The position numbers were made by a program, and so were the translations under genes. From the NCBI GenBank assembly GCA_002104935.1, contig MCGT01000002.1, positions 744,001-808,000 on the forward strand: 64,000 nt of DNA, given 5' to 3'. Below the pieces are notes generated by a model. That model did not search any database and was not told the DNA's origin. It saw only the letters and a program-made list of their open reading frames with translations. This DNA is from Hesseltinella vesiculosa. Its lineage: Eukaryota; Mucoromycota; Mucoromycetes; Mucorales; Cunninghamellaceae. How positions within the stretch are numbered: position 1 is the first letter of the stretch; each line of letters begins with the position of its first letter. Shown here piece by piece: positions 2,840 through 6,644 of the stretch.

Positions 2840-4157
2840 CTAACAAAAGAGTAATCAACTTTTATTTAATGTACACTCTTTTAGCCCACACATTATGGCT
2901 CTCACGTTTTTTTTTTTTTTTTTCAAATCATCACTCACGTTCACCAAGAAAAAAAGTTACAGGGGAAAAAGGCACACAAAAAAAAGGGGGGGGAGAAGAG
3001 CCTTGCCTTTTTTATTTTTGCGGAGCTGATTTTGACGAAGCTTTTTTGAAAGAGGTTTGACACGGGGCATGCACGACAAAAGAGACTTTTTTTTTGCGCT
3101 TTTACCAAAACTATGTTCCAGTAACGACAAGGTTTATAGCAATGATCACGAATTTCAAATGACAAGTCGGTGACAAAAAGTGCCCGTTTCATGGTGGTAT
3201 GCCGGAGGCACACCCGACGCTTCAGCTGAAGAACCACTTCCACATAGAAATGCTGTTTATTGAGGTCGCATGAGTTCCAAACCTTACTTGCAGCCTCATG
3301 CACGTCCTCCAAAGAAACAACGACACTTTATTCAGCACCCAAAGCGAGCGAGCCTGGGTCAAACAGCCGTGTGCTTGGGTTTGGCCGACACGTGACCCAC
3401 CAGGACTGTCAACTTTTTCCTGGAGGTGGCTGGTGAAACCAACTCACTTTTGGCGTGCATGATGAAAAAGAGGGAGCACTTTGATGCCTACCTAAGGCTC
3501 GCTTTATTGCCTATGTCCGCTCAATAAAAATAAGCCAAACACCAAGACCATGACTTGGGTTGCGGTGAGCATCAAAGCCATTGCCAAAAAGCCGAGGGTG
3601 AGAAAGCCAGTTTAGATGGGCAAGCTCATAACGTATCTAATCCCTATTACATAGAAACAACTGGCTTTCTGACCAACTCATTCCTTTCCAGCGCCCATGT
3701 CAATAGCCACCCGTGCAGGTGAGGCCGCCCAAAAGCCATTGGTGATTCAAGAAATGAGAATTGAAACGACGCTGTAGGCAGTTGCCGCTCGGTTGGGTTC
3801 GGACGGCATCCCTAGGCGTAGTGGATGGATTTCGAAAAAACCACCGTTCAAAAAAGAGCATCGAAACTTTCCACTTTCTTGCGCCTGCGTATGGTTGCTC
3901 GTAAACAAAACGATAGGTCCAGTGTTGCACACCTTGGTTTCATCTAAGAATCAATCGGGAAAAAGATGTGACTAATAGTTATACACGCGAGATTTGATTG
4001 GTGCGATTTGGTATCCGCCTCCCGTTGGTCCCATCGTATTTTAACCCCCAAAATTTTTTTTTCTTCCTCACTTCTTTTTTTCTTCTTATCTTTCGATAGT
4101 TTATCGTCTCGCTCTACGCTTTTTTTCTTTCATTGTTACATCCTTGAAATTTTTCTT
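2840..4157. other. Intergenic region between kinesin and CPS small subunit
   Basis: This is the divergent promoter region of two unrelated genes. It holds several A and T homopolymers (for example 2909-2923) and a long pyrimidine-rich stretch at about 4051-4140 that looks like the transcription start zone of the CPS gene. Small open frames here (such as 2941-3312 on the minus strand) show no family features, and I do not call a gene. Confidence 0.6.
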
Positions 4158-4165
4158 TGACGTCA
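4158..4165 (+). promoter_or_regulatory. Perfect CRE-like palindrome TGACGTCA upstream of the uORF
   Basis: An exact TGACGTCA sits 13 bp before the uORF start codon. bZIP factors of the ATF/CREB class, and Gcn4/CPC1-type regulators of amino-acid genes in fungi, can bind this or the related TGACTCA. It lies just downstream of a pyrimidine-rich tract, so it may be inside the transcribed leader, which would weaken a promoter role. An 8-bp match can occur by chance. Confidence 0.35.
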
Positions 4166-4177
4166 AGTCATTACTTT

Positions 4178-4318
4178 ATGTATATTCACGCCTTTGAAAA
4201 GTGCTCAGCCGATTATATTTGCGATCAAAGTATGCTTTGAACAAACATTCGTTCTCGCCAGGTTTCTAACCATGCCTTTTTTCACGCTGTAGTCTGGAAA
4301 TCCTCTGGTAGTTTTTAA
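4178..4318 (+). CDS. Spliced leader uORF encoding an arginine attenuator-like peptide
   Basis: Exon 1 is 4178-4229 and exon 2 is 4293-4318. The 63-nt intron has donor GTATGC, branch TTCTAAC at 4264-4270 and acceptor TGTAG. The spliced reading is 25 codons: MYIHAFEKCSAD, then YICDQIWKSSGSF, then TAA. In Neurospora arg-2 and yeast CPA1 a leader peptide with core DY(L/I)SDH(L/I)W stalls ribosomes when arginine is high and so represses the small subunit. Here Ser10, Asp12, Tyr13, Ile14, Asp16, Ile18 and Trp19 fall in the same register as the Neurospora peptide, and length equals the 25 residues of the yeast peptide. The main start codon lies 83 nt downstream of the uORF stop. Too short for ordinary gene finding. 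The role in arginine attenuation is inferred from motif and position. Confidence 0.85.
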
Positions 4319-4401
4319 ATCTCTTTTGCCCCATCTCGTTTAGTATCCCTTTTTTATTTTATTTTTAACTTAGTTTCTCTCCCCTGCCTATTATTTTTAT
4401 T

Positions 4402-5640
4402 ATGAACTCCATCTTCAAAGCCGTCCAAGTCCTCAAGACTCCCTCTGCCGCTCTCATGCGTCGTGGCTTTGCCACGCATACCTCCGGTCTTGCCCCTGCA
4501 GCCCTCAAGCTGAAAACCGGTCAATCCTTCAAGGGTCAATCATTCGGCGCTGACCAATCATCCTTTGGCGAAGCTGTCTTCACCACCTCCCTCGTTGGCT
4601 ATCCCGAATCCATGACAGACCCTTCCTACACCGGCCAAATCCTCGTCTTCACCCAACCTTTGATTGGCAACTACGGTGTGCCTGGTCAAACGCTCGATGA
4701 ATTTGGCTTGTCCAAGTACTTTGAATCGGACAAGATCCAAGTGCAAGGAATTGTGGTCAACGACTATGCAACCCACTACTCCCATTGGACCGCCGTCGAG
4801 TCCCTCGGTCAATGGTGCCAACGCCAAAACATCCCTGCCATCACAGGTGTCGATACTCGTGCTCTGACACAATTGCTTCGTGACCAAGGCTCCACCTTGG
4901 CTCAATTGGCTGTCGGTGCCGATGCTGCCGAATCCGCCAAATTGTCCTTCCCTGACCCCAATGCTGAAAACCTCGTAGCCAAGGTCTCCACCAAAGTGCC
5001 CTTGCATTTCAACCCCGAAGGCGATGTCAAGATTGCCGTCATTGACTGTGGCGTCAAGCAAAACATCCTTCGCTGTCTGACCAAGCGTGGCGCCAATGTC
5101 ACTGTGCTGCCTTGGAACTATGACATCAACAAGGTCAAGGACCAATTCGATGGTCTCTTCATTTCCAACGGCCCCGGCTCGCCCTCCACCTGTACCGAAA
5201 CTGTCCAACACTTGCGCACTGCCATTGACACCTGGAACAAGCCCATCTTCGGCATCTGCATGGGCAACCTGCTGCTCGGTATGGCTGCCGGCCTGGATGT
5301 TTATAAATTACCCTTTGGCAACCGCGGCCACAATCAACCTGCTTTGAACGTCGACACTGGTCTGTGCTATATCACCTCGCAAAACCACGGTTATGCTCTC
5401 CAAGACGAAGCCATGCCTACCGGCTGGAAGAAACTCTTCGTCAATGCCAACGACGGCTCCAATGAAGGCATCCAGCACGAATCCAAGCCTATCTTCTCCG
5501 TGCAATTCCACCCTGAAGCCAAGGGCGGCCCTCAAGATACCGAGTATCTTTTTGACCAATTCTTGGAACAGGTGCGGGCCATCAAGTCCGTTTCCTTCCA
5601 ACCCGCCATCGAAGCCCAACAAGCCTCCGCTTATGCTTAA
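4402..5640 (+). CDS. CPA1: Carbamoyl-phosphate synthase, arginine-specific small (glutaminase) subunit, mitochondrial
   Basis: Hydrolyses glutamine and channels ammonia to the large subunit for carbamoyl phosphate in arginine synthesis. Single exon, 412 residues. Residues 1 to about 30 are basic and hydroxylated (RRGFATHTSG), a likely mitochondrial presequence. The CPSase small-subunit N domain follows (about 35-175), then a class-I glutamine amidotransferase domain. The nucleophile Cys is in FGICMGN, and the His-Glu pair in QFHPEA, so the triad is present; SQNHGYA and NRGHNQP are also family motifs. The residues after the Cys are GNL rather than the GHQ typical of active glutaminases; human CPS1, which lacks the Cys, also has GNL (from memory). 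Control by the upstream uORF is expected. A poly(A) signal candidate is at 5759. Confidence 0.96.
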   Translation: MNSIFKAVQVLKTPSAALMRRGFATHTSGLAPAALKLKTGQSFKGQSFGADQSSFGEAVFTTSLVGYPESMTDPSYTGQILVFTQPLIGNYGVPGQTLDEFGLSKYFESDKIQVQGIVVNDYATHYSHWTAVESLGQWCQRQNIPAITGVDTRALTQLLRDQGSTLAQLAVGADAAESAKLSFPDPNAENLVAKVSTKVPLHFNPEGDVKIAVIDCGVKQNILRCLTKRGANVTVLPWNYDINKVKDQFDGLFISNGPGSPSTCTETVQHLRTAIDTWNKPIFGICMGNLLLGMAAGLDVYKLPFGNRGHNQPALNVDTGLCYITSQNHGYALQDEAMPTGWKKLFVNANDGSNEGIQHESKPIFSVQFHPEAKGGPQDTEYLFDQFLEQVRAIKSVSFQPAIEAQQASAYA

Positions 5641-6077: not shown

Positions 6078-6644
6078 ATGAGCGAAATCCTTCCCGAAAA
6101 TATTATGGACATGGTGCTCGATCTATGCAAAATGAACGACTTGATCACGTTCAGCTTTACATCAAGACGCTATTTTGACAAAGTTTCTCGCGTGGGCGTC
6201 TGGAATGACATCATGGTGAACAACGGTTTCCCTGCCAGCTTATCTTCGGCCTCGGCAATGGCTCAAGTGATTCATTTACATAATGAAAATGGTCTTTGCG
6301 AGCGTTGCCAGCACTTTGGATCCAAACCGATCACGCCATACACCGGCTCAAAAGGGATTCTTCAGGTGAAGTTTTTCGATGGCAGTGAAAAGCGACTTTG
6401 CCTCGATTGCAGACAAACCTGGAAGCAAATGGAAAATGAGAAGACCATCTACCTCCCAAAGCCATTACCTGCAAAAGAAATTTCTGTGAAGCAGGCTCGA
6501 AAGATCTTGGCGTTCCCTCATGGCCACCCCTATGTCAACAATCCTGTCGCTATGCTTGCTGCTGCCCTCCGTTACCATGGTGGCTACGCTGGTATTGTTG
6601 CTGCTCTCCAGACCAGCGCTTACATGAGATTACATCATGGATAA
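6078..6644 (+). CDS. Hypothetical protein, F-box-like N-terminus with two CxxC zinc-ribbon-like pairs
   Basis: 188 residues, no intron. Residues 1 to about 45 (LPENIMDMVLDLCKMNDL, then FTSRRYFDKVS) resemble an F-box: a Leu-Pro start, an amphipathic helix, and a later aromatic/basic helix. The middle carries CERC (about residue 74) and CLDC (about residue 113), two CxxC pairs about 36 residues apart that could bind one zinc. The C-terminus is Ala/His-rich and ends YMRLHHG. If the F-box is real, the protein would bind Skp1 in an SCF ubiquitin ligase; that is inference. I do not recognise an orthologue. A coherent single frame with its own pyrimidine-rich leader and normal codon use supports a true gene. 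Confidence 0.75.
   Translation: MSEILPENIMDMVLDLCKMNDLITFSFTSRRYFDKVSRVGVWNDIMVNNGFPASLSSASAMAQVIHLHNENGLCERCQHFGSKPITPYTGSKGILQVKFFDGSEKRLCLDCRQTWKQMENEKTIYLPKPLPAKEISVKQARKILAFPHGHPYVNNPVAMLAAALRYHGGYAGIVAALQTSAYMRLHHG

Follow-up and report, generated by a model that had tools for sequence, protein, structure and literature searches.

The window, that is the whole 64-kb stretch of DNA that was analysed, carries a gene for the small subunit of a glutamine-hydrolysing carbamoyl-phosphate synthetase (CPS) and, in the leader of this gene, a short uORF which is predicted to be interrupted by an intron (Table 1). A 25-residue uORF at 4178..4318 with an intron at 4230-4292 had been claimed in the preliminary description, and on re-translation both the coordinates and the peptide were exact. 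The main ORF starts 83 nt past the uORF stop. The CRE-like palindrome TGACGTCA, which has just two occurrences in the window, may act as a promoter site for a bZIP factor and tie the gene to it. As this site lies right before the uAUG, transcription could start below the uAUG, which would count against the uORF.

Table 1. Features of the CPS small-subunit locus, in positions of the window
Feature	Position	Strand	Remark
Perfect palindrome TGACGTCA, CRE-like	4158..4165	.	end 12 nt before uORF ATG
uORF exon 1	4178..4229	+	ATG 4178-4180; codons 1-17 and base 1 of codon 18 (MYIHAFEKCSADYICDQ)
Intron, predicted, phase 1, 63 nt	4230..4292	+	donor GTATGC, acceptor CTGTAG, inside codon 18
Branch-point-like CTAAC	4266..4270	+	within the predicted uORF intron
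uORF exon 2	4293..4318	+	rest of Ile18, Trp19-Lys20 to Phe25, stop TAA 4316-4318
Main ORF, glutamine-hydrolysing CPS small subunit, putative arginine type	4402..5640	+	412 aa

Removal of the intron yields a product of 25 residues, MYIHAFEKCSADYICDQIWKSSGSF, of which Asp12, Tyr13, Ile14 and Asp16 are encoded by exon 1. The Trp codon is present in exon 2 only, as had been stated before: without splicing, a stop codon closes the frame behind residue 20 (MYIHAFEKCSADYICDQSML), before any Trp is reached. The placement of the intron in the codon just before Trp was likewise found to be right, since it is a phase 1 intron inside codon 18. Because Trp19 lies in exon 2, together with two of the three bases of codon 18, an arrest-competent peptide would be made from spliced mRNA only. 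The unspliced mRNA contains two extra AUGs, at 4232 and 4272. The sequence context of the uAUG, where U occupies both -3 and +4, appears weak and would permit leaky scanning, a feature of leaders with an arginine attenuator peptide (AAP). At the main AUG, A is found at both -3 and +4.

The downstream gene and its host lineage

The main ORF matches TIGR01368 with 454 bits (cut-off 307) and contains the domains PF00988 and PF00117. Its closest relative apart from itself, among the best 120 of 7996 scored proteins, is a protein of Gongronella butleri with 87% identity. These matches bear out the CPS small-subunit gene that had been proposed downstream of the uORF. The N-terminus resembles that of the G. 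butleri protein and by eye looks like a mitochondrial presequence. In a tree of 30 rows, hand-picked from the best 120 of 7996 proteins, the window protein joins Gongronella with a support of 100/98, and both lie within a group of six together with Cunninghamella, Halteromyces and Chlamydoabsidia. Gongronella belongs to the Cunninghamellaceae (Mucorales, Mucoromycota), and the grouping with this genus supports the earlier proposal of a Mucoromycota genome. The first 150 residues of the best 120 of 7996 CPS proteins contain no AAP-like motif, so that a fusion of uORF and protein occurs in none of the listed gene models.

In the genome (27.05 Mb, 85 contigs), CPS small-chain matches elsewhere were confined to one place, on contig C34. 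At this locus, a CPS large-chain domain and a carbamoyltransferase domain, the latter part of a frame of 1285 codons, come next on the same strand within ~7 kb, which suggests a CAD-type gene of pyrimidine synthesis. Contig C6 encodes a second large subunit of CPS, the start of which resembles a presequence. From the separate CAD-type gene and this second large subunit, we infer that the window gene encodes the arginine-type small subunit. Beside the CAD-type gene, two more carbamoyltransferase genes, apparently split by introns, were noticed at C6:442346-442917 and C34:334103-334706; one of them should be the gene for ornithine carbamoyltransferase.

Splice signals and likeness to known attenuator peptides

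Splice signals were scored with a matrix derived from nine introns of 50-74 nt, which were picked by eye from other window genes with recognisable frames. This choice was made because coding-bias intron finding in the window was too noisy, with decoy signals yielding as many candidates or more. A tenth intron (35757-35651) was left out before matrix building due to an ambiguous acceptor, and a branch of the form CT[AG]A[CT] is lacking in one of the nine. Leave-one-out was used for the donor and the acceptor, the branch matrix being excluded from it. With the peptide not used, 4230-4292 obtains the highest score among the 38 GT-AG pairs of 45-130 nt that the leader contains, which supports the intron predicted in the preliminary description. 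Its total score is 16.1, compared to 13.3 for the runner-up and 12.9-26.9 for the nine reference introns; the donor scores 7.1 (references 3.7-8.9) and the branch 6.3 (references 3.6-9.7). Scores at least as high are reached by 146 of the 6518 GTA..AG pairs in the window, so the splice signal of the uORF is good but no proof on its own. AUG depletion in the spliced leader was not significant, neither from 3969 (1 AUG compared to a mean of 3.3, P 0.12) nor from 4057 (P 0.40) or 4131 (P 0.26), and was therefore dropped as support for the uORF and its intron.

The references for the peptide match were the Neurospora crassa arg-2 AAP and the Saccharomyces cerevisiae CPA1 leader peptide. The yeast CPA1 uORF is not known to contain an intron. 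The AAP of N. crassa (24 aa, PDB 2xl1_A) belongs to the same gene class, has the same leader position and differs in length by one residue at most. It shares Met1, Ser10, Asp12, Tyr13, Asp16 and Trp19 with the window peptide in the same numbering, whereas Ile replaces Leu at positions 14 and 18 and the N-terminal part is unlike. The preliminary description had placed Ser10, Asp12, Tyr13, Ile14, Asp16, Ile18 and Trp19 in the Neurospora register; this is true for Ser10, Asp12, Tyr13, Asp16 and Trp19, but Ile14 and Ile18 are not Neurospora-like and match the yeast peptide instead. The latter has 25 aa like the window peptide, and DYI..D..IWK as well as a Ser are common to both. With the register shifted by one, Asp12, Tyr13, Ile14, Asp16, Ile18, Trp19, Lys20 and Ser22 are shared. 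The likeness to yeast that had been pointed out for IWK thus holds for Ile18, Trp19 and Lys20. The TCQ.YI part of the yeast sequence matches a primer quoted in PMC7969011, where a weak uAUG context and leaky scanning are also reported for the yeast uORF, similar to the seemingly weak uAUG context in the window.

In an AAP review (PMC3130931), Asp12, Tyr13, residue 14 and Trp19 are named as critical; Lys14 is printed there, and the PDB chain 2xl1_A has Leu14. Only the spliced form of the window uORF combines the AAP length of ~24-25 residues with Asp12, Tyr13, Leu/Ile14 and Trp19 in register, and it lies, as AAPs do, in the leader of what appears to be an arginine-specific CPS small-subunit gene. 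Overall identity to the two references is 25% and 38%. The window peptide carries Ala11, Cys15 and Gln17 compared to Gln, Ser and His in the N. crassa AAP, thereby departing from Gln11 and His17, which are common to both references, and from Ser15. A PDB search with the window peptide alone gave chance matches only (best E 0.22). An alignment of the three peptides finds 2xl1_A in the PDB. Since this alignment contains the N. crassa peptide, the match confirms the N. crassa sequence that was used and provides no independent support for the window peptide.

Alternative explanations and proposed mechanism

Our data indicate that the uORF is very probably a genuine AAP of an arginine-type CPS small-subunit mRNA, with arginine-dependent stalling as in yeast and Neurospora. 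It could be argued that the resemblance arose by chance, from any short uORF that happens to contain a fortuitous GT-AG pair, in particular as two short references leave room for post hoc reading. The score of the peptide is defined here as the best ungapped BLOSUM62 score against the two reference AAPs. The spliced peptide scores 47, a value attained by 2 of 20000 residue shuffles of the peptide itself. Not one of 5000 dinucleotide shuffles of the leader (4057-4401, 345 nt) reached it (maximum 38), nor did any of 2534 overlapping segments of equal length taken from both strands of the rest of the window (maximum 33); in both sets, every ATG frame was considered with optional GT-AG introns of 45-120 nt carrying a CT[AG]A[CT] branch. 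The likeness to known AAPs is thus above chance in these tests. The unspliced peptide has an unremarkable score of 23, attained by 259/5000 shuffles and 269/2534 segments, and the AAP match therefore rests on the splice. A genome search for the 25-aa peptide gave the known exon as the sole match and no second copy, and in the 500 nt that precede the gene for the CPS large subunit and the CAD-type gene, the best AAP-like scores were only 13 and 16. The pattern DYxxD(H/Q) occurs at 4 places in the genomic DNA (2 for the reversed-pattern control), one of them being the window uORF; the other three are found in an 88-codon, a 520-codon and a 20-codon frame, the last without evident gene. Only the window uORF precedes a CPS gene, which is the exact gene class that bears an AAP in other fungi, and mere coincidence is highly improbable. 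A looser search, for DY[IL]xDx with the start of an [ILM]-type codon behind it, was discarded: it hits 19 genome places compared to 10 for the reversed control, and the window leader is missing among the 19 because the intron splits the motif.

Alternatively, the uORF could be a true AAP homologue whose arginine sensing was lost in this lineage, leaving a plain and weakly repressive uORF. The low overall identity and the changed residues 11, 15 and 17 speak for such a loss. On the other hand, residues 12, 13 and 19 and a conservative residue 14, which the review (PMC3130931) names as critical, are retained. Retention of Lys20, as in the yeast peptide, is likewise unexpected in a decaying peptide, and we regard the loss of sensing as unlikely. 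Regulated retention of the uORF intron is also possible judging from the sequence, and could switch arginine sensing off or route the mRNA to decay, as the unspliced mRNA has a reading frame that ends after codon 20 with no Trp and includes the extra AUGs at 4232 and 4272. However, donor and branch scores are ordinary, so that constitutive splicing is the simpler view, and an attenuator gated by splicing seems unlikely.

The preferred reading as a genuine AAP rests on computation, namely on sequence, gene, register, splice signals and statistics, whereas in vivo splicing, translation of the uORF, stalling in response to arginine and mRNA decay are presumed by analogy with published work on fungal AAPs. 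As described for yeast and Neurospora, arginine and the nascent AAP together halt the ribosome at the stop codon of the uORF, so that less of the main ORF is translated; in yeast, the stall is linked to nonsense-mediated decay and the basal level is set by leaky scanning past the weak uAUG (PMC7969011 and PMC11550727). For the window gene, the 63-nt intron would be removed and some scanning ribosomes would initiate at the uAUG in its weak context, making the 25-residue peptide. With plentiful arginine, the nascent DYICDQIW in the exit tunnel would stall the ribosome at the uORF stop, the predicted stalling site. The stalled ribosome would block its followers from the main AUG at 4402 and would probably also lay the mRNA open to nonsense-mediated decay. 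Under arginine shortage, leaky scanning would allow the enzyme to be produced. The predicted anatomy fits known AAPs step by step: the same gene, a weak uAUG, the same core and a short spacer ahead of the main AUG.

Relation to known arginine-responsive uORFs and implications

The AAP family and its mechanism are established in Ascomycota and in a basidiomycete. In the Basidiomycota, the CPA1 homologue of Cryptococcus carries an AAP-type uORF before the same gene; this uORF shows high ribosome occupancy, and the mRNA is increased 5-fold in a upf1 mutant (PMC7049704). The peptide encoded by the ApiAT1 uORF of Toxoplasma gondii responds to arginine, resembles AAPs over a stretch and contains an Asp that is critical; convergent evolution is weighed by the authors (PMC8370653). 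ApiAT1 is an arginine transporter of an apicomplexan, whereas the window gene encodes a CPS. Among the papers listed in searches of the open literature, none was found to report an AAP in Mucoromycota, but Hood, Spevak and Sachs (2007), who surveyed fungi, may have included Rhizopus data or introns in uORFs. Our literature search likewise found neither the AAP core strings nor a paper joining an intron-bearing uORF with an arginine arrest peptide in fungi. The splitting of key codons by an intron may depart from the known AAP form.

The gene, the place in the leader and the core speak for homology of the peptide to the known AAPs; if this is right, the device is at least as old as the ancestor of Mucoromycota and Dikarya. 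Nascent-peptide arginine sensing would then probably have been present in this common ancestor, making the AAP a very old metabolite-sensing arrest peptide. Given how far the sequence has diverged, the core that responds to arginine would likely be reduced to roughly DYI..D..IW and a basic residue, which would help structural work. A leader with two inputs, in which intron retention turns sensing on or off, combined with a peptide that predates the Mucoromycota-Dikarya split, would go further still, and we hold this combination to be improbable. The uORF intron would nevertheless offer a clean test of splicing gating an arrest peptide, and it would serve as a warning that uORF surveys of unspliced leaders can overlook intron-split peptides.

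Some further observations concern other genes. In the leader/promoter of the CPS large-subunit gene on C6 (L062 reverse complement, 400 nt before 2916; G000 C6 upstream of 265085), TGAGTCATCA occurs twice; we take these to be Gcn4/CPC1-type sites. The same leader contains a 26-codon uORF, MNCGFYLITSGLLAFDKTYIDNILIK, which is not AAP-like (score 13). In the window, a small ORF of 188 aa at 6078-6641 has a weak F-box match (19.5 bits, Pfam cut-off 20.5 bits), and a kinesin heavy-chain-like gene with several short introns lies at 181-2839 on the minus strand, with PF00225 in one exon.
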